Origin: Maylandia zebra
Taxonomy: Eukaryota > Chordata > Actinopteri > Cichliformes > Cichlidae
Direction of reading: 5' to 3'
Assembly: GCF_041146795.1 (NCBI RefSeq)
Contig: NC_135170.1
Span: 24,360,033-24,424,032, forward strand
DNA length: 64,000 bases
Shown here piece by piece: positions 9,651 to 59,654 of this stretch (position 1 is the stretch's first letter; each line of letters starts with the position of its first letter). Both the position numbers and the translations under genes were made by a program. Below the pieces are notes generated by a model, which was not told the origin of the DNA, ran no database searches, and was given only the letters and a program-made list of their open reading frames with translations.

Positions 9651-12600
9651 TTACTTCCTGGCAACAAGAAGGGTATGGTAGAGAGGTTTTATTACAATGT
9701 GCAGATAGAGGGAGCTGTCAATCAGGTATTCGGATGCACGCCGCTGCAGATCAGCATCCAGCAGAAAATCCCCAGCTTCCTCTGTGCTTTGGTGGAAGTT
9801 GTAGACATGCTTGACCACCACTTTTCCCTGCTGCTTTGTCATTACAATCACCGTCTTCTGGAAACTCACGCCGGCAAAGTCAGGGCTTGAAGTGGCTGGT
9901 GTTACAATGATGCGAGGTCGACCTCCCTCCGTGCGGGTGGGCTGCATAGCACCCAGTTCGGTATAAGTTGACCTGGCACTGAGCGGGAGCCACCGAGGTG
10001 AGAACAGGGCGTTCCATGTCACTCTCTTACTGGAGTCATGGCCACTGGGTCCAAGCTGGGTCTGGAAGCTGAAGCTCCGGTCATCACGGGTGGGGTTGTT
10101 TATGATCCAAGGTGATCCCCAGGCAGAGGACAGGTAGTTACGGGGAGTAAAAATACTGCAGTTGACATCAAAGTACTTGGCAAGCTGGATAGGCGAGGCA
10201 GCGTGAAATTGGAAAGCTAGATAGAGGAGATCACGGATTGACTCATAATACTTCACCATGAGGGGGGAATGTTTCTGAAGACGGAAGAGATGCTGAGGGT
10301 GGATCATGCCATATCGAATGGCCCTCAGGGCACTCTCCACTGTCATACGAACAGGCTGGTTCTGGTTAATCCATCCCTCCAGTGCCTCGTAGAGTTCCAG
10401 CTCACTCTGCAGAATGAGGTCAGAACGCTGGAGCAAGGAGAGGAGAAGATCTTCACTGATGAAGCCCCATTCTCTGCTCTGCAGCACAGAAGACAGGTTC
10501 CAGGACAGGTACTGCAGACAGCTGTCCCGCAGGGTTATGTCCCCAATTTGTAGAGCATAGTTGTACCAACCAACCACGTGGCCTGTGGGTGAATCACTGG
10601 AGAGATGTTGAGTCATATATTGGGTCAAACCCTCCTGCAAGCCCCACACATGGTACTTGCTTGCCAACTTATGTAGAGAAATAGCCTGATCTAGCCGCAG
10701 AGAAATATCACCACAGTACAGATACCTGCAAAGAGATTTTTTGAAAGCATTGTTAAAAGAAAGGAACATTTCTGTGGGGCATACTATATTTTGAATCTTT
10801 TTTTCTGCACGCATCTGAGTCACTGAAAAAAGCCCACACTCTCTGATTTTAGACTGCAAGCCTCAAGGAGCAAGTGTAATTTTAGAATAGAGATGGAGAT
10901 GGAGCATTTTACTTATCTGAAAAGAAAGGAAAAATAGGAAACGTGTCTATCTTTTTAGTCATCAACGATATGACCCAGTAACAAATCAGTCTCAATAAAT
11001 CGTGGCATCTGACAGTCCCGCTCACCTGACAAACTTCTCAAAGATGGCTGCACAGTCAGGCGTCTCCCTCAGAACCACAGAGCTGGTGTTGCGGCTGAGC
11101 AGCAGCTCCTCAAACACATCACTCTGCAGGGTAAGAACCAGGCTGTGTGCCTGGATCACCTTCACTTCGTCCGTGTTGATGGTCTCCACACGGAGAGTGA
11201 CATCACTGCCGTTTCCCAGGGCCAGCAGGGTCTCCATACGATGCACTAAATTCATAGTATGATTTAGCACTGTGGCTCCACTATCCAATGCCACATCATG
11301 CTTCAGGGCAGCTGTGGGGAAAAAATAGTGCAAGATGATTTCCACTTCTCAGAAACTCAACAATCACTTGAGCTTTTTTTTTTTTTTTTTTAAAGAAAAT
11401 GTATTATTCATCTCTGATTACAGATTGATTCTTTCTCTATCTTTTTCTTACAAGTTAAATCATATCTGACACATCTAGAACTGGAATAGCACACCTCTTT
11501 CGACTAAACCACAACTGGCAAAATGCGCCGGGGGGAAAAGCAGACTTGCACATCCTTCTCTACCTCTCTTCTCAATTAATAGGGAGCGAGAGCAACAAGC
11601 CAGGTGGCTGACTCAGACAACATCAGATACCGGGTGCACCAAAATGAATCCTGAGTTTGCAGCCCCATTGCAGATGGATTCTTCTATGGGTCCTCTTGAG
11701 CATAAATACAAGTGGCACATACTGGAGAATCATACATGAAAGACTCAGCATGAGAAGTCGCTGATTCCATTCTGCTCTGCCACAGCCATCAGCAGCCTTC
11801 TTGGCCTGTTAACTGGGGGTTTAATGAGACACAAGGGGGAGCACACTTGGCTTCCCGGGATGCATCACAGTCTTTATTTCTCCACTGCAATCAAGAGCTC
11901 CCACTTCAAAGTAACATTTTTCCAATTAGCCAGCCAGCACTGTGATCCAGCTGAGTATATGGGAGTGTGTATTGACAAATGATTCTGGCATGGTGTGATC
12001 AATTAAAAAATATAAATCCCAAGACCCACAATGGCTGTTACATCTTTTTGCAGAATTTCTTTAGAAAAAGAATAACAAATGTGAAATTCAGTTAAAAGTA
12101 GACAACTTAAAAAGTAGTGCCTCTTCTACTAAAGCTTGAAAAAAGCTATCAGAATCAGAATCAGAATCAGAATACTTTATTGATCCCTGGGGGAAATTAT
12201 TTATCAACATGAATTGGTTTATACACATTAATAAATAAGAATTAAATGAGTCTGTGTACACACATCAAACAGCAGCATAATGTGGCCTTCGATAACTTTT
12301 GTCACAATCAGCCCTTCTTTTAAGGAGTAGAGGAGATTTCCCTCTCAGCACTTGTACTCTGCTGTACTACTGTGCTGGCACAAAGCCTAGTGGCAAATGG
12401 ACTTGCCCGTCTTTCACTGCACCCGGCACACAAACAGATGAGGACAGGATGAGAGAAACAGATAAATACCCCTCCTTTGCCCTGAGGCTGGGCACGAGCC
12501 ACACATTCATGATGTGCCCTACTACCCATGACTGTATGGGGGGAGCTGGACTGAAATAGAACAATACAGCTTCCCTTAGAGTGTAGGATGTGGGGAAAAA

Positions 12601-16627: not shown

Positions 16628-18362
16628 CTAGAACACTATCGCTAAAAATAGTACCACCATCACTAATGCCGGGTGATTTTTACCCAATATAATATACCCA
16701 ACAAAAAGTACTTGTCATCAAAATATATAAAATATATGACAACACATGACAAATTAGAGGGGTTTTCTTTTATTTTCAGCTGTGCCATATCTAACAAAAT
16801 GGAAAAAAAGTTTCATGGGGGGACCCTAAAAAATGCTCCAAAATTTCTGGAAAATTAGCAGTTGGAGAACAAAACAAATCCTAAACAAAAATATAATGAT
16901 GCTGGAAACTTGGTCTTTGGTCCACCCATTCCTGGGATATTTGAGTCTTCCCTGGTGAAGGCACAGTCTCCTTGACACGCGAACAGCTGCAGGAGAGAGA
17001 AACAAAAAATGGCATTTTTTGAGTGGGTAAAAATGACCAGTTGACTAAAATATTTCTTTTTACCATATGAATTCCCTTGGAAATCACCACTTGTTGATAT
17101 TTATTCATAACCACTGCACTAAATAAGGATAACATGCAAATTCCAGGACCACTTTTACTTACCTATTCCTTACATGCAGTCAGTACACACAGGGTAGTAA
17201 TGGCGTGGACACACCGGTCGACGGCAGACATGGCACCTGTATCGCGTCTTCCTGTCCAAGCCTGTGGGGCACACCTCACTAAGGGACCACTGCTTTCTGC
17301 TGCCACTGGTCGTGCCTCACCTTCAAGAGTGCCAGGGGTAGGGATGTTGAGCACGCTACAGATCAGGACTCTGAGTTGATGTGACAGATTTGAAGAGGGG
17401 AGCCTCTGCTCTGCCCATGGTTTGCTGAGTGCCAATGCCAAAGCCTGCATATAAGGCCTCCTCTGCATTTGGTTTTCACCTCTCTTCATTGCATTCTCAT
17501 TGTGAATGATCCATGAGTTTATCACATCAGCATTGATCATGCCATAGAACACGCAAAGGGGCCATCTCTTGGTTTTTCTTCCACAACCATAGTGAGCGCA
17601 CATCTGGTCAAAAGTATCGACACCTCCCTTTGTTTTGTTGTAAAATTCAATCACTTCGGCCCTACAAGTGGGTCCTATGCTTGGTTGTGTATGCATGGAT
17701 GACAGGAGCAGTACAACCTTCTTTTTTGAAGCTTTGTCAGGGAGGAAGGACACCAAGGTTAGTTCTTTGGTAAAAAGAAATGCACTGGAGCCTGGCGCGT
17801 GATTTTCTTTAACTTTCATCACTTGTGGGATCTCCCTTTTGTTTGCTTTTATTGTTCCCACTAAGGTCATGCCACAGCTAGCTACATAACATAGCTTTTA
17901 GATTTAAAAAAAGAAAAGAAAAAGAAATCTAATCAGCTAACAATTGCCAAGTTAAACAAACCTTACCTCTGTGTTACTCACTAGCTGAGATGCCAAAGAC
18001 ACTAAACCTGCAACAGGGTGACAGCTGTAGTTGAAGAGGGACAGTAAATATGGTGAGCCTGAATGTTGTCACCCTTGAAATGCGGCAAGATCACCTGATT
18101 TTATACACTAACACTATCACCGGGTGAAATCCACCCAAAACCTACTTTACCCTCTATCACTATTGCTGGGTGAAATTCACCCGAACACATGCCTGTAGGA
18201 AAAAGCGGGATTTGGGGTAGGGAAACACCCACGCCTTCAAAGACGTCAAAGACAATGCTGAAGCTACCCAGAGACCCACCACACTCAGACAAACGCAACA
18301 TATTGAAAATTATGTAAATACATTTGCTCGGGTGAAAATCACCCGGCGATAGTGTTCTAGGG
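16628..18362 (-). mobile_element. piggyBac DNA transposon with TTAA target sites
   Basis: The ends are inverted copies of CCCTAGAACACTATCGC, flanked on both sides by TTAA (16624-16627 and 18363-18366), the piggyBac signature. Inside each end lie short GGGTGA/TCACCC repeats. The element holds the 3' part of a transposase on the minus strand. At 1.7 kb it is shorter than a full piggyBac and lacks the front part of the transposase, so it is non-autonomous. Confidence 0.92.
17163..17870 (-). pseudogene. piggyBac transposase, C-terminal half, truncated
   Basis: A 235-residue open frame carries the piggyBac signature YNKTKGGVDTFDQM and RKTKRWPLCVFYGMINADV, the end of the DDE domain. The N-terminal half, with the first catalytic aspartates, is absent. 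Near its C-terminus the open frame leaves the expected cysteine-rich zinc domain. That domain (VCPTGLDRKTRYRCHVC, then CPRHYYPVC) is readable in a neighbouring frame at about 17,165-17,275, so a frameshift has occurred. Confidence 0.85.
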
Positions 18363-20543: not shown

Positions 20544-22548
20544 ATGGACCCAACTAGTGCTCCAAAAGGATGTGGTGGTGATGTGAGCTCCATATATTAT
20601 AATCTGTGTGACCTGACAGCAGTATGGGGCATCGTAGTGGAAGCTGTTGCTGCTGTTGGTGTGCTGACTGCCTTTATCTTGTTCGTCATTCTCATGGCTA
20701 GCTTACCGTTTGTGACAGACAAGAAGAGAAAGGGTATGGTGGGCCTGCAGGCCAGCATTTTAGTTTTCACACTGGGTCTGTTTGGACTTAGTTTTGCCTT
20801 TATTGTGGAGCAGTATTCTACTACCTGTGCTGCACGGAGGTACCTGTTTGGAGTACTGTTCTCAGGCTGTCTGGCCTGCCTGGTGATGCATGGGCTGTGG
20901 CTTGCCCTGCTGCAAAGGGGAGGCCAGGGGCCCAGGAGCTGGATGTTATGGCTGGGAGCCCTGGCTCTCTGGCTTGTCGAGGTGATCATCAACACCGAGT
21001 GGCTTGTCATTACTGTGGCCAGGAGCCCACTCAGAGGTCTCGGTGTTCCTGACCTGGCCTGCAGCTTTGTCAGCCGGGACTTTGTGATGGCTCTTATATA
21101 TGTAATGGTTCTGATAGCAGCTGTGGTGCTAACGTCTGTGCCCTCACTAACACACAAGCAAAAGCACTGGCGCCGAGATGGAGCCTTTATCCTGGTCACA
21201 GGAGTCCTCACTTTGGCACTTTGGATAGCTTGGATTGTCATGTACATCTATGGGAACCGAGCAGTTGATAATTCCAGCTGGGACGATCCGACTATGGCTA
21301 TAGCCGTGGTGTCAAATGCCTGGGTGTTCCTCTTGTTCTATGCAATTCCAGAAATCTGTTTATTGACCCAGGAGGACCCAAACAAGGAACAACCCGATGG
21401 GGAAGAAGTCTATCCTGCTAGAAGCCTGGTTTACGACAACATTCTGAAGGAGCCACAGCCCACCCCGCAGCATGTCTACGTAGAAAATAAAGCCTTTTCT
21501 ATGGATGAACCAGGTACAGCATAACACATTATGGTCAGCCATTAACTTCACAGTTCAGCAGTTTAATACTGTTTAGGTGGGTACAGAATCATTAGAATTA
21601 ATACATTTTATTAAGTAGTAATTAAGTAATCAATAGGAATTAATTTCTAAATTTTATTGAGACACGTTTGGATTATTCCAAACTGATAACAAGCACTGCG
21701 TGGTATATTACATAATGCATCAGTGTAGCAAATGAAGACCCACACTGGCTACAGTACACCTTCTCCAGTTTACTGTTTTGTAATTTTGAAAATTGCTGTT
21801 TTTGTATACCACTTTCCTATTTATCCACAACCCACATTATCAGCACAAAGCATATTGCCATTGCGAAGAATCACTGTTTTTCTGGCCCAAACCCAAACTG
21901 CTTCAGTAATGTTGAGGCTCAGACCACAATATTACTGAAATATATAATGTCCCATTCTGTATTTTTCTATCCACGTCAATGCCAGTTTGAATGTAGCAAA
22001 TTTCGTTACATACAAGCACATACACATATATGCTTATACCATGCTGAGATATGCAAAACCTCTGGCTAAAGGCACTTTGGGCATCAATTTGTTTATTTTT
22101 TTAAAAAAAACAAAACTTCAGAAAGAATGGACAACTGATGCTCAACATCACTTGGACAATTTTAAGAAAGTGTAGCTCCTTGGAAGCGCAATAATTTTAA
22201 AAAATTGGGAGTGGCTCTAGGTTTTTGCAACAGATTGCACACAGACAACAAAATGAATCCAGTAATGACTGTAAAATAACATTTTTTTATGACAGAATCC
22301 ACAAATCCAACGTCTCCATATGGGGTTTACAATGGTCAGGCACGAAGTTGTTTATACCAGCCCACTGAAATAGCCTTGATTGCCAAAGGTCTGACAAGGG
22401 TGAGTGCTATTTTTAATCACGAAACATCCCGTCTTTATGACATCACATGTGAAAATAATCCATATGTGTATTTTCACAGAAGGACCAAGACTCAATGATA
22501 CTTCGAACCACACCTGGCCCTTTGAATATGGGGAGCTGCAGCTCCTAG
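20544..22548 (+). CDS. gprc5c: GPRC5C, retinoic-acid-induced orphan class C GPCR
   Basis: Three coding exons, 20544-21513, 22296-22399 and 22480-22548, join in phase to 380 residues. The first carries a short extracellular N-terminus (GCGGDVSSIYYNLCD) and seven membrane segments. Family marks include 'WGIVVEAVAAVGVLTAFIL', 'VEVIINTEWLVIT', 'DFVMALIYVM', 'WIAWIVMYIYGN' and 'DDPTMAIAVVSNAWVFLLFY'. The cytoplasmic tail has VENKAFSMDEP, 'YNGQARSCLYQPTEIALI' and a short end GSCSS, close to the human GPRC5C tail. Class C receptors of this group lack the large ligand-binding domain. The neighbour btbd17 is also its neighbour in human 17q25. Confidence 0.96.
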
Positions 22549-34308: not shown

Positions 34309-35532
34309 CTATACTTTATGACGATTAATGCGTTCCAGCAGTCGTATGGTAATAAATAATATCAGAATCTGGACCCCAAACACGACAGTCACAATTATTC
34401 CTATCAGGCCCTCGTGCTGCTTGATCCATCGAGAGATTTCCCCCAGACAACCTCCCAGGAAGATCACACTCTGAGCAGTAAACTCATCCAGTAATTGGGC
34501 TCCGACACCACACTGAGAGTTCCACACGGTGCCGTTCTCCAGAGGATCCACGCAGCATGTTGCAGGGACACCGCAGGCCAGCACTCCTGGAGCTGAGCAG
34601 TTGTAATATCTGAAGAAAGGGAAAAATAACCCAATAAAAAAACTTCACAGCTCATTAAGTTCTTCAACACATTCCTACATCGTGACCAACTGGCTTTGAT
34701 TTACTTTCAAAAAAGTAAAAAAAAAAAGATTTCCAAGTTGCTCACATGTTAATCTCCCAGTCTCTGTAGTTGTCCGCCCCACAGCACTGCAGATTTGACT
34801 GAATCTCGTCTGTGATGAACCTCAGATCCAGATCATCTTGGTACCGTGCGATGGCAACTAACATCCCGGATCGCAAGTTACTTTCAATCTGATCTTGTAG
34901 AGTATGGGCCACAATGGCGATGATGACTTGAGCTGTGATGAGCACCAGCACTGTGGCTGAGAACAGCTTCAGCAAGCAGCGATTCTCTCTTAGGGCACCC
35001 ACGCAGCCTGACAGGCACAGCACAGTGAGCAGAAAGCCCACGCTCAGAACTACCAGCATTGGGTCAGTGCCAATACTGCTGATCTTCTCCTGAGCAAAGG
35101 ATTCCTTGCTAATGAGACCCCAAACCCCCAGAGCAAGAAGCAACAGGCCCAGAACTGTGAACAACAGATTGCATATGATAAGAAAGTATTTTAGGAAATA
35201 GTCCATGAAAGAATAACCGTAACAGGGATCTATCCTGGCATCTGTGGGACTGCTGTGTTGCTGTCCGCTGTTTGTCCCTGCTTGAAAATCAGTAGTGACC
35301 AAGGCAAGCTCCTCAGCATTGTTTGTAGATCCTGCCTTTAGACACACAAGAATGCCACAAAAAATTAAAGCCACCCCAGAAATGTAACTACAGGTGAACA
35401 GAGGAACACAGTATTCTCAAACTAACCCAGTAACACACCTACCTTTGGTAAGAGTGGACTGGTCTCATTCGGAGTAGCATCTCGTCTCAGCCATGGCCAA
35501 GGGAATCTTTTTCTAGGCAAAAATCTCCTCAT
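34309..35532 (-). CDS. tspan10: TSPAN10 (oculospanin), tetraspanin of pigment cells and RPE
   Basis: Three coding exons, high to low: 35443-35532, 34746-35335 and 34309-34609, join in phase to 326 residues. The N-terminal tail starts MRRFLPRKRFPW and holds NETSPLLPK, resembling the SPLL motif of human TSPAN10. Four membrane segments follow. The large extracellular loop has the tetraspanin CCG (SNLQCCGADNYRDW), then YYNCSAPG, ATCCVDP and the last cysteine in GGCLGE. The match to human (AIAHYQDDPDLRF versus AIARYQDDLDLRF) is strong. TSPAN10 belongs to the TspanC8 group that handles ADAM10. An open frame continuing upstream of the middle exon (MALIFCGIL...) is intron read-through; the phase supports the acceptor at 35336. 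Confidence 0.95.
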
Positions 35533-43169: not shown

Positions 43170-43634
43170 ATGCTGAGAACCTTCTGTACTCTTATTGCTC
43201 TAGCATGTAAGAGCGGCTACTGGTTCATTTTATAGTCTGTATTTAGAAACATAAAACTTTATTTAAATATTAATTAATTTAAACATTCTTTTTTTCTCTG
43301 ACAGGTGTGGATGCTGCAAAAGTGTTGACCCAGACACCACCTGTCCACACAGTTTCTCCAGGAGACGAGGTTCTGCTCAAATGCAATGTTCAGAGAGATG
43401 AAGGCTATTATGTCAGCTGGTACAAACAGGTCCCTGGTTCTACTCCTCAGTATATTCTGAGATTTTATCATAGCCACAGTTCACCCAGCTTTGGAACAGG
43501 ATTCTCCTCAGACCGATTTAATTCTAAAGCCTCATCAAACATTGATTATCAGTTAATCATCAAGCAAGCAGAAGCAGGAGACTCTGCTGTGTATTACTGT
43601 AGCACATGGGACAGCTCTGCTCAGGAGAGCGTAT
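43170..43634 (+). CDS. Ig light chain V segment V1 (sigma-like)
   Basis: Leader exon 43170-43206 (MLRTFCTLIALA, phase 1) and V exon 43305-43634. The V domain runs VDAAKVLTQTPPVHTVSPG, first cysteine in LLKCNV, core tryptophan in VSWYKQVPGSTPQYIL, and second cysteine in DSAVYYCSTWD. CDR1 is short. The loop after the FR2 tyrosine (FYHSHSSPSFGTGFSSDRF) is long, a trait of sigma-type V domains. The germline end is ESVS, then the RSS. The frame is open and all structural residues are present, so it looks functional. It groups with V2. Confidence 0.9.
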
Positions 43635-43662: not shown

Positions 43663-43730
43663 TCTGTACAGAATACTTCTGCTTTCAGAGGCTTTAACAT
43701 TTTGTTAACAATGACTATGTGTCTGCTAGA

Positions 43731-43865
43731 CATCCAACTGGATCATAGATAAGGTTAACATATATCAAGTGTCTTTGGGCTAGGAGACTTCAGAGAAAAA
43801 TATCAAGAATATCAGAATATCCTACTCAATAACAGAGGACCAAAATGAGTATTTAAAATCTTCTT
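43731..43865 (+). pseudogene. Relic of an Ig light chain C exon (3' half)
   Basis: The text matches the end of the C exons and their 3' UTR: 'aaggttaacatatatcaagtgtctttgggc', then 'gagacttcagagaaaaatatcaagaa' and 'gagtatttaaaatct'. The 5' part of the exon and any J are gone. Point changes and small gaps are many, so it is old. It follows V1 by only about 70 bp. Confidence 0.75.
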
Positions 43866-45840: not shown

Positions 45841-46001
45841 TTTCAGACTTCAGCCTCCCTCTTCTTGTCCTGACAGTCTTCCCTCCATGCAGTGCTGAGC
45901 TCCAGTCCAACAAAGCCTCTCTGGTCTGTCTGACCATCCAAACATCAGACTGGGTGAAGTGTCTTTGTGAAAACCATCAAGAATTCATAATGGCCCAATG
46001 A
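45841..46001 (+). pseudogene. Ig light chain C exon relic with internal deletions
   Basis: It begins with an acceptor-like TTTCAG and the C start (cttcagcctccctcttcttg), keeps 'gagctccagtccaa' and CTCTCTGGTCTGTCTG, then jumps to 'accatccaaacatcagactgg' and on to 'gtgaagtgtctttg'. About 150 bp of the middle of the domain is missing, including the core tryptophan strand, and a further small piece is lost. It is followed by a decayed V. Confidence 0.8.
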
Positions 46002-46209
46002 ATAGTAGATGCCTGTGCAAGTAGGTTATATAGCTGATACAATTACTTATAAAGCTAGACAAGATGAAAAGAGAGCAAAATAATCTTTACCCACAGCTCC
46101 TCCACCTTTTGGTAATCTTAAATGACACCTCATGCTCATTCTCTCTTTAGCCTATAAAAACTGTCCAATATTGTTTGAAGTTACAAATCTGCTCTCATCT
46201 CACACTGAC

Positions 46210-47712: not shown

Positions 47713-48692
47713 GACATACAGACATAAATAAAATAGAAGCAAATATTTCCGTTGTGTGTGTTTTTTGGAACACCTCTTTATATCATGTGTTGTTTTAAAG
47801 GAAGAATATCAACACTGTGACAAAAAACTAAATGAGAGTTAAATAATTTCCCCCAGGGATCAATAAAGTATTCTGATTCTGATTCTGATTCTGATTCTGA
47901 TTCTGAGAGACTCTACAGATTTTAAAAATAAATTCTAACCATTTGAAATCATTACATTTTTTTGACTTTGACTTTTTTTTTGTTAATTTGTTGTTGTACT
48001 GTGCATTTAAAATATTGAGGTTAAAGCTGTGTAAATGCTGACCCCAGCCCAGCAGCCAGACTCTAAACTTCAACAGATAATAAAAGCAGTGATGAGCAGT
48101 CAGACTGCAGCCTCCTTTTCTACCTGTTCATGTTTCTAAACTAGAATCACAGTGACGACTGCTGATGGCTTTGAGTTCACACCTAAACACTAAGAGAAAA
48201 ATCATGTGTGTGTTCTCCGTAGGATATGGATTTCTGTTGGTGTATGGGACTACAGTCTAGCCTCAGGTTTATATTGTTCAGTAGCAATTATGAGACAATG
48301 AATTTCAGGCCATTTCATGGAGAAACGCAAAAGTAATGTAACTAGTGTAGAGAATTACTTTATACTGGGAATAATTCAGTCATGTGCATTATTTGTGCAT
48401 TATCTTTAAGAATAGTAATGAGTAATGTATAAAACATTACTTTTTTTGAGTAATAACCCAACAATGATCACAGCAAAGAGGGGAAATACCTCTAACAAGT
48501 TCAAATGTTTGACCACACAGCGTGCAAATAATTTTCATGAATGTAATGTGTTTAATATGCTTTTCAGTGATGTTGGCGACTCTAGAAGCAAAGCCAGTGA
48601 GAATTCAGTGAGACTCAATAAAGAATCGAATTGATAAATAATATTGATAATCACTAAATCACTAAATTCTTATCAAGTCCCATCCCTACTTT

Positions 48693-48815
48693 GTGCTGTA
48701 TTTTTATTATAGCTATATTTTTCTTTATGGGTTTGGCTTCTCCTCTCCAATATTCACATGTACTCATCCGTCAACATCAGATTAGCATTTTGATCAACAA
48801 TATATGGGGAAGTGA
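48693..48815 (+). pseudogene. V segment FR2-FR3 fragment upstream of J1
   Basis: The text 'tgtgctgtatttttattatagc', then 'gggtttggcttctcctctccaatattcacatgtactcatc' and 'gtcaacatcagattagcattttgatcaacaat' matches the V3 exon from FR2 to FR3. It is degenerate and out of frame. It ends just before the conserved pre-J block. Confidence 0.75.
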
Positions 48816-48819
48816 CACT

Positions 48820-48883
48820 GACAGTGAAAGTTGGTCTCAATTGGATGTTTCAGTTCCTCTCCCCTCATCACTTACAGTCAGGA
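48820..48883 (+). promoter_or_regulatory. Conserved pre-J block with a PU.1/IRF composite motif (J1)
   Basis: About 65 bp immediately before the J1 RSS is nearly identical to the block before J2. It contains TTTCAGTTCC (48848-48857), on the minus strand GGAACTGAAA, a perfect match to the Ets-IRF composite consensus GGAANNGAAA, next to CTCTCCCCTC. PU.1/IRF4 elements of this form drive mammalian light-chain enhancers. Here it could drive germline J transcription. Confidence 0.6.
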
Positions 48884-48922
48884 GGTTTTTGTACAGCCAT
48901 GTATACAAACTGAATCACTGTG
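48884..48922 (+). other. 23-bp-spacer RSS of J1
   Basis: Nonamer GGTTTTTGT, 23-bp spacer and heptamer CACTGTG. It is the exact partner of the V 12-spacer signals. Confidence 0.95.
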
Positions 48923-48956
48923 GTATTCGGACAAGGCACCAAGCTGATTGTGACAA
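48923..48956 (+). CDS. Ig light chain J segment J1
   Basis: Reads VFGQGTKLIVT and one extra base, then the donor GTAAG. FGQG is the J hallmark. The coding text is identical to J2. The extra A joins GC of the C exon to give serine. Confidence 0.95.
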
Positions 48957-49789: not shown

Positions 49790-50112
49790 GCTCCAGCCTC
49801 CCTCCTCCTGTCCTGACAGTCTTCCCTCCGTCCAGTGCTGAGCTCCAGTCCGACACAGCTTCTCTGGTCTGTCTGTCCAGTCAGTCTGTGCCTTTTGCAG
49901 ATGTGAGCTGGTTGGCTGGTGGGAGTCCAGTGAGCAGTGGGATCTCTACCAGCACTGCTGTTCAGAGACCAGACCAGACTTACCAAATCAGCAGCTCTCT
50001 GACCATCCAGACATCAGACTGGAACATGGATAAGGTTTATACATGTAAAGTGTCTTTGGGCTCACAGACTTCAGAGAAAACCATCAGCAAATCAACCTGT
50101 AGCACTGACTAG
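49790..50112 (+). CDS. Ig light chain constant exon C1
   Basis: A single C1-set Ig domain of 107 residues, counting the serine made across the J-C splice. It starts SSSLPPPVLTVFPPSSAELQ. The domain cysteines are at 28 (SLVCLS) and 86 (VYTCKV), with core tryptophan at 41 (DVSWLAGG). Cysteine 104, in the tail KSTCSTD, is the likely bond to the heavy chain. An acceptor TTTTCAG precedes it; a polyadenylation signal AATAAA is at 50237-50242. The domain differs from C2 at only a few residues, mostly in the tail. Confidence 0.95.
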
Positions 50113-50579
50113 CAGACGGGTCAGAATCAGCATTTAAAGTCTGCTCTTCAATCCTTTTGGTATTTTTTTGTGCCTGTGTACATGTAAGAAAATACTAGCA
50201 GTTAATGTTTGCTATGCATTTATTCTGCAAAATGTTAATAAAAAATATTGCAAGTGAACATTGGAGGCAATGTAGCATTTTCTTCTTCTGCCAGTTTGAA
50301 TTTCCTCAACTCTTCTGTATGTCCATGTGCTAGTGTGTGCATGTCCATAAGTTCTTTACTTGTGGGGAGGTTATCATAGCTTCATGTTAGTCTCCAAACT
50401 TCCACCTCAAAAAACAAAAGTAAAAAAATTCTCTGATCATATATAGAGAATTGGAGTGCCTGAAAAGATAATTAATATTTTACATTCTGGTTTAAGTTTC
50501 CTGCAATAAAAGTGGTTTGAAAAGACCCCCCCCCCCCTCCAAAATGAGTAGTAACTGAAACTATCTACACCTCCCCCTC

Positions 50580-51630: not shown

Positions 51631-52235
51631 TGTAAATAATTTAAATTAAAGGTTTTTGCTGCACATTGGTTTGTGTCTTCTGTATATTCTGGGAAATTCC
51701 TCATCTTTAGAACAGCAATCTCCACAGAAAGACTTTGGGATAGGGTGACTCGGTAAATAAAGCACAGTAATTCAATATTGCAAGGAAAACTTGAATTAGA
51801 CACTACAGCTTTCATGAATTCTGAAAAACATTAAATATTTCCAGTCATTCCATAAGGAGTGAAAAAATACTGATAATGAATGAACTTCTTTTTTTTTAAA
51901 TTACCTTCACGTTTAACAACATTACACCTCAGTTTGTTAGATGAGCCCAGTGTTGCTACCACTAATATTACCACCAGGTATAATTAATCAGTAGTAGTGT
52001 CAGTATATTATTTGATGATAAATGTGAAGACTCAAACCAGTGGCAGTGGTAAAAAGATACATATTAAAAGCACTTGACATTATTTATCAGAAAATATAGA
52101 AAATTTAAGAGAATTTAACAAAGGAAACAATTCAGAGAGAGCGCCATAGCTCCTCCTCCTCCTCGTTGTATTAAATGGCTACTCCAGTACCTCCTCTTCT
52201 TATCTTACCGTAAAATCTCAGTTGACATTGACAAC

Positions 52236-57195: not shown

Positions 57196-57982
57196 TAGGG
57201 TAATGATATAACAACTGCAATAAAAAACAACAACAACACAGGGTTTAAATATAACAGGGGGTAGCAAGGGAATGGGAAACAGGAGGGAAACACAGGTGGA
57301 CTAATCTGACATAACAAGACGGGGAGGAAGCAAGACTGAAAACACTGAACGCAGGACATAAGACCGCCAAAGTAAAACAGGAAATACAAATAAGGCTTAC
57401 TTACAGACAAATAAGGAGACATGGCTGACAGGGAAAAGTGAACATGGAGCACTGAGAGAAGAGTAACTAAACGTGGAACACGGGGAAGGGAAGGTAACAG
57501 AAACCCAAGGACTATAACTAAGAATGTAACATAAGCAGAAAACAATAACGGGAATAAAACCGACAAATCAAAACATAACTAATCAGAATCAGCATACTTT
57601 ACTAATCCCTAGGGAAATTATGTAATTGTATAACTAATCAAAAACACAACACGCTGGGTTCCAGACCCAGTAGCATGATACTTTCAGCTTTAAAATCTAA
57701 CCATGATTGATTTTATATCTGTATGAAATCAGAGAGTTAAAGTGTGAGATAATAAATCTTATCCACTGCTTCAGCGTAGTCTTATGAATAACAAGTTACA
57801 AATGTACTGTGTGATGCAGATGTGGATAAAGACATGAGAAAAACTGTGTTGCTCACATCTCAATCGGATTTGAACTTAAAAAAAGAAAAAGAAAAACAAA
57901 CTTGAATGTGACAGTAAAGTAAAAGCTCAGTCATTCAATGTGTTATGAAATATAAGCAGACTGATGAGGGGAAAATAAAGAT

Positions 57983-58046
57983 GACAGTGAAAGTTGGCCT
58001 CAGCAGGATGTTTCAGTTCCTCTCCCCTCATCAGTGACAGTCAGGA
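57983..58046 (+). promoter_or_regulatory. Conserved pre-J block with a PU.1/IRF composite motif (J2)
   Basis: Nearly identical to the block before J1, starting GACAGTGAAAGTTGG. It includes TTTCAGTTCC at 58011-58020 (GGAACTGAAA on the minus strand) and the adjacent CTCTCCCCTC. The few differences fall outside the motif. Confidence 0.6.
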
Positions 58047-58085
58047 GGTTTTTGTACAGCCATGTATACAAACTGAATCACTGTG
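58047..58085 (+). other. 23-bp-spacer RSS of J2
   Basis: Nonamer GGTTTTTGT, 23-bp spacer and heptamer CACTGTG. It is identical to the J1 signal, spacer included. Confidence 0.95.
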
Positions 58086-58119
58086 GTATTCGGACAAGGC
58101 ACCAAGCTGATTGTGACAA
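58086..58119 (+). CDS. Ig light chain J segment J2
   Basis: VFGQGTKLIVT, then donor GTAAG. Identical to J1. The J2-C2 intron is 873 bp, against 833 bp in cluster 1. Confidence 0.95.
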
Positions 58120-58992: not shown

Positions 58993-59315
58993 GCTCCAGC
59001 CTCCCTCCTCCTGTCCTGACAGTCTTCCGTCCGTCCAGTGCTGAGCTCCAGTCCGACACAGCTTCTCTGGTCTGTCTGTCCAGTCAGTCTGTGCCTTTTG
59101 TAGATGTGAGCTGGTTGGCTGCTGGGAGTCCAGTGAGCAGTGGGATCTCTACCAGCACTGCTGTTCAGAGACCAGACCAGACTTACCAAATCAGCAGCTC
59201 TCTGACCATCCAGACATCAGACTGGAACATGGATAAGGTTTATACATGTAAAGTGTCTTTGGGCTCACAGACTTCAGAGAAAACCATCAAGAAGTCAGAA
59301 TGTCCCACTGAGTAG
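58993..59315 (+). CDS. Ig light chain constant exon C2
   Basis: Single C1-set domain of 107 residues with cysteines 28 and 86, tryptophan 41, and the tail cysteine 104 in KKSECPTE. Compared with C1 it has FRP for FPP, FVD for FAD, AAG for AGG, and a different tail. It ends in two stop codons in a row. Polyadenylation signal AATAAA near 59,479. High identity to C1 shows a recent cluster duplication or conversion. Confidence 0.95.
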
Positions 59316-59654
59316 TAGAAGGGTCAGAATCAGCATTTAACATCTATCTGGCTCTTTAATGCTCCTGGCATTTGTTTAGTGCTCATTTTCATGTTATAAA
59401 ATACGAGCAGTTACTGTTGTGACTGTTTGATTTATGTGCTCTACTGGCCTTTGCTATATGTTTATTCAGCAAAATAATAATAAAAAAATATTGTAACAAA
59501 ATGATTGATGTGTATCCTGCATTTCCCCTTTTTGTCATATTTCTTGTTCTAGTTTAACTTACCTGCAATAGTAAAGAGGTTTGAAAAAAGATGAGTATTA
59601 AATTAAACTGAATTTTCTTTGACTGTCAGTGAGGCATCATCTATTTTACACCTC

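Follow-up and report, generated by a model that had tools for sequence, protein, structure and literature searches.

The site in the mouse kappa 3' enhancer carries the sequence GAGGAACTGAAA, and the germline promoter of D-beta-1 in the T-cell receptor beta locus lies immediately next to an RSS and has been tested experimentally as a regulatory element. The composite motif recognized by PU.1 and IRF proteins (EICE) is defined as GGAANNGAAA (PMC9454692). The E-lambda-3-1 enhancer is the element through which PU.1 and IRF4 drive transcription of mouse J-lambda-1; the V and J promoters, by the account of the same study, are not direct targets of IRF4 binding (PMC10602925, in the portion of the article available). 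Mouse J RSSs immediately adjoin the promoter of non-coding transcription, according to an excerpt of PMC3655464, and at mouse V-kappa genes the presence of PU.1 at the RSS distinguishes those that recombine from those that are silent, according to an excerpt of PMC5698286. For cartilaginous fish, part of a review (PMC5192425) notes that V segments appear to be the only ones with associated promoters. In zebrafish there is a pre-B state that is positive for heavy chain and negative for light chain (PMC9365674, in part), and the term 'irf4' does not occur in the available part of that text. In the literature excerpts at hand, we did not find an account of how the several small light-chain clusters of teleosts time the opening of their J segments. 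Among the open-licence PMC matches listed, none placed an EICE at a J segment in its title or the start of its abstract, and none of those listed for GAGGAACTGAAA as text concerned light-chain regulation, judged by title or opening abstract.

Layout and identity of the locus

We analyzed a 64-kb stretch of Maylandia zebra DNA (hereafter the window, at its full length), the right-hand third of which is a fish light-chain locus with five V, two J and two C segments, all V, J and C exons lying on the plus strand. The five V exons are stop-free, start near 43306, 45201, 47072, 52986 and 54522, and are each terminated by a perfect 12-spacer RSS; both J segments have a perfect 23-spacer RSS on the minus strand and a C exon downstream. 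In the first cluster the J1 RSS (48884-48922, minus strand) is followed by the J1 exon (48923-48956, plus strand), which encodes VFGQGTKLIVT, and by the C1 exon (49790-50113, plus strand). In the second, the J2 RSS (58047-58085, minus strand) is followed by the J2 exon (58086-58119, plus strand), again encoding VFGQGTKLIVT, and by the C2 exon (58993-59316, plus strand). The two C exons are identical at 311 of 324 positions. When 49790-50107 is compared with 58993-59310, a cluster of differences lies in the last eight codons, as at the edge of a conversion tract.

All seven RSSs are perfect and show the V12/J23 arrangement which, together with a shared orientation of V and J, is described for teleost sigma (L2) in excerpts of PMC5241823 and PMC11223323. 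The five intact V segments and the J segments have a common orientation here, and each V lies 5' of at least one J. The spacing itself is common to sigma and kappa (PMC11223323, in part), and L2 V segments in the opposite orientation are described as well in the torafugu paper among these sources. Pfam assigned V-set to both of the V exons scanned (two of the five) and C1-set to C1, and the C domain matched generic Ig C1-set and mammalian Ig only, in a comparison set without a teleost reference. On the strength of the RSS spacing and the shared orientation, the locus is probably teleost sigma/L2.

A V exon relic covering part of FR2-FR3 was located by tblastn at 48684-48782, on the strand of J1 and directly 5' of the block upstream of J1 that is described below. 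Two C exon relics, at 43730-43804 and 45852-45944, lie 3' of the first two V genes without a J between; the pattern of the J block, with up to three mismatches allowed, is absent at both. Relic V promoters were picked up at 46094-46190 and 52137-52226 by a V-promoter profile. Elsewhere the window contains a BTBD17-like gene (9651-10859, minus strand), a class C 7TM receptor gene (20544-21524, plus strand) that is presumably GPRC5-like, a tetraspanin gene (34742-35374, minus strand) and a DDE_Tnp_1_7 transposase fragment (17163-17870, minus strand), which we take to be of piggyBac type. The window gave no match in Rfam.

The EICE upstream of each J

The initial annotation had described a nearly identical block of about 65 bp before each J, with a perfect PU.1/IRF composite motif about 27 bp from the J nonamer. 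The block indeed spans 65 bp without a gap (48819-48883 at J1, 57982-58046 at J2, plus strand), and 'nearly identical' translates into 59 of 65 positions, or 91%. The motif was recovered in both J blocks, which match GGAANNGAAA perfectly, and the distance to the nonamer was measured as 26 bp in both. Across both strands of the 64 kb there are exactly two perfect matches to GGAANNGAAA, each reading GGAACTGAAA on the minus strand (48848-48857 at J1 and 58011-58020 at J2). The two matches to GAGGAACTGAAA in the window are both at these positions.

The proposed likeness to the PU.1/IRF4 site of mammalian light-chain 3' enhancers also held. The human kappa 3' enhancer PU oligonucleotide given in an excerpt of PMC3291551 includes ggggaactgaaaacaga and therefore has the same 10-mer GGAACTGAAA as the fish sites. 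In the available part of a 2026 preprint (PMC13307996), PU.1:IRF4 bound those EICE variants in which N1 or N3 was G or C (12 of 16 probes), (C/A)(C/T)-GAAA-(C/A) was favored at IRF4-bound sites, G at N1 or N3 was needed for BLIMP1 (7 of 16 probes), GTGAAAG was the core assigned to BLIMP1, and flank preferences discriminated the factors weakly at EICEs in vivo. The flanks of the fish site, C-T-GAAA-C with C at both N1 and N3, fall within the PU.1:IRF4-binding variants of that partial source.

GTGAAAG itself, a BLIMP1-type or IRF half-site, is conserved in both J blocks, toward the opposite end of the block and 17 bp from the EICE (48824-48830 and 57987-57993, plus strand); the window holds 15 copies of this 7-mer. 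Just 5' of the blocks there are near-EICEs with one mismatch, GGAAGTGACA at 48808-48817 and GGAAAATAAA at 57970-57979 (both plus strand). We consider these weak because the window has 88 one-mismatch sites, and the idea that each block is preceded by a decayed second EICE was discounted.

Shuffling of the whole window gave a mean of 3.00 matches to GGAANNGAAA, with at least two in 81 of 100 shuffles. There is thus no enrichment of the motif across the whole window; it is the position of the site beside J that is unusual. An EICE arose in 109 of 20,000 shuffles of block 1 and in 38 of 20,000 of block 2, and shuffles of 1 kb around each J put the chance per 65 bp at 0.0032 and 0.0034. The chance of an EICE per 65-bp block is thus approximately 0.2-0.5%, a value that applies to a single event and to a motif chosen post hoc among others that could have been noticed. 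It was counted for a single event because the second J copy is a duplicate: the two EICE copies represent one ancestral event, and the second adds no weight.

Cluster divergence, gene conversion and rival readings

Conservation was compared in one pair of clusters, both within the same 64-kb window; tblastn against collections of viral and prokaryotic contigs, with 16 and 143 pattern stretches respectively, gave no fish relative. The RSS (39/39) and the J exon (34/34) are identical between the clusters, whereas the J-C intron is identical at 537 of 726 positions, a difference of 26%, with a further 254 gap columns. The J blocks differ at 48835, 48840-48842, 48871 and 48873, and six or fewer mismatches in 65 at the divergence of the intron have a probability of 0.0007. 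In the intron alignment, 916 windows of 65 columns, with gaps scored against them, had a median of 36 matches and a maximum of 46, so that none attained the 59 of the block. Immediately 3' of the J exon, 65 columns contain 42 matches and differ from the block when gap columns are treated as mismatches (Fisher P = 0.0006), but with the 14 gap columns dropped the difference between 42/51 and the block is not significant (P = 0.26), and neither is that for the first 38 gap-free columns 3' of J (30/38, P = 0.13). The left/right asymmetry about J was therefore abandoned as evidence of constraint, which lowered the chance that we assign to an accessibility element from even to somewhat below even. 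The left edge of the block may be a breakpoint, because the V relic at 48684-48782 lies upstream in J1 and ends alignability.

The resemblance of the two blocks could have arisen by copying and coincidence, with the J segment, its RSS and neighboring bases homogenized by short gene-conversion tracts and the EICE a functionless chance match in the converted shoulder. On the evidence of the codons, the C exons are homogenized and gene conversion has acted on this pair, since the first 98 C codons hold three differences, all amino-acid-changing, and no synonymous change; the first 94 codons offer approximately 69 synonymous sites, and zero change at the 26% of the intron has a probability of about 1e-9 without conversion. 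J and its flanks may have been homogenized too, as the 73/73 identity of RSS and J together would suggest, and the two shoulders of J are not significantly different once gaps are set aside. The preservation of the motif fits the same account: random draws leave it intact in 44% (eight fixed motif bases escaping six random mismatches, P = 0.44), the identical 28-bp run that includes the EICE has a P value of 0.20, and we rejected the intact motif as evidence of selection on both counts. Given gene conversion and a motif that stays intact by chance this often, the identity of the block is no proof of selection on the motif in this pair. Copying would still require the 0.2-0.5% coincidence of an EICE beside J, however, and the sequence matched is that of the Ets-IRF site best known from light-chain loci. 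We regard this explanation as quite possible, although on balance doubtful.

The block had also been suggested to be a germline J promoter or a local opener for recombination. Its place, with 26 bp between EICE and nonamer in both copies, is immediately next to the J RSS, as in a germline J promoter, and the partial texts of PMC3655464 and PMC5698286 supply mammalian precedents, but the anatomy of a promoter was not found. No TATA box was seen by eye in the J blocks (TATACAAA at 48902-48909 falls in the RSS spacer), and a profile of the five V promoters recovered those five and two relics, with no J block among 29 matches with E values up to 50. The block might nevertheless be a TATA-less germline J promoter that makes no use of PU.1 or IRF, in which case the sense-strand TTTCAGTTCC would be read as an initiator with a pyrimidine-rich stretch after it, an arrangement like that of V start sites. 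Outside the J blocks, block 1 scores best against the region where the V at 43170 starts, and summed sense-strand scores against the V promoters were matched by dinucleotide shuffles in only 4 of 2000 (J1) and 30 of 2000 (J2), whereas antisense scores showed no excess over such shuffles. However, among 6134 window segments outside the J blocks, 15 reached the score of block 1 and 112 that of block 2 (16 and 115 of 6162 with J-overlapping segments included), so that the likeness is mostly one of composition. With the profile and the segment control both negative for a V-like core promoter, we rejected kinship of the J blocks with V promoters and consider a promoter of this kind decidedly improbable. 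A different element, namely an extended recombination signal, the site of another factor or a splice acceptor for unspliced germline transcripts, might draw on the fact that the 28-bp run of identity extends beyond the EICE and that the pyrimidine-rich stretch is followed by CAG. That run is unremarkable by its P value, though, the acceptor-like end varies between the copies at 48871 and 48873, and a stop in the frame of J (TGA, 48911-48913) lies between this end and J, all of which makes such an element very improbable.

Proposed role and comparison with known systems

We tentatively favor, at somewhat less than an even chance, the reading of the block as a J-proximal PU.1/IRF accessibility element that is removed by VJ joining. 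From the observed site, its place, the geometry shared by the clusters and the gap-free block at 91% identity, we infer factor binding, opening, transcription and a self-ending step. In B-lineage precursors, PU.1 (or Spi-B) and a putative IRF4/IRF8-type partner would bind GGAACTGAAA at its distance of 26 bp from the J nonamer, and the bound pair would keep the J RSS nucleosome-free and start or support germline J-C transcription. RAG would then load on J at the opened RSS, and VJ joining by deletion would cut out the block, ending its action on that allele. The block is expected to be lost on joining, given its position on the signal side of the RSS and the common orientation of V and J.

In a broader form of this proposal, which we think unlikely, the PU.1/IRF input that lies in distant light-chain enhancers in mammals would, in this teleost lineage, be built into each J and belong to the recombination unit. 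The resulting switch, portable and self-erasing, would combine an IRF4-type EICE with a BLIMP1-type GTGAAAG 17 bp off, would open J before joining and would be excised by joining, each duplicated V-J-C cluster thus having its own accessibility control. If true, each copied cluster would come with a precursor-stage switch of its own in the form of a J-borne EICE, and the removal of that switch would be tied to recombination. The idea also yields a cheap and concrete prediction, applicable to every fish genome in which sigma J segments are annotated.

The D-beta-1 promoter resembles the fish block in lying beside an RSS, but belongs to a T-cell locus and uses other factors. The EICE of the mammalian Ig kappa 3' enhancer is like the fish site in having the same 10-mer (human oligonucleotide, PMC3291551, in part) and in belonging to a light-chain locus. 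The kappa EICE, however, lies in an enhancer 3' of C, whereas the fish EICE abuts the J RSS on its signal side; within the window no perfect EICE was found 3' of either C and both sites are 5' of J, so that the arrangement of a light-chain 3' enhancer is not reproduced. PU.1 occupancy at mouse V-kappa RSSs offers a further likeness, in that PU.1 beside an RSS predicts recombination (PMC5698286, in part). That case concerns the V side and was established by ChIP, the words 'motif' and 'composite' being absent from the available portion of the article, whereas the fish case concerns the J side and a composite motif identified in the sequence. Mouse E-lambda-3-1 and HSE-1, which act on V-lambda-1 and J-lambda-1, are similar in that their PU.1/IRF4 sites raise germline J transcription (PMC10602925, in part). 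There, as far as that partial text goes, IRF4 acts on J-lambda-1 from enhancers and not directly, whereas the candidate fish site would be borne by J itself and would therefore represent a relocated input.
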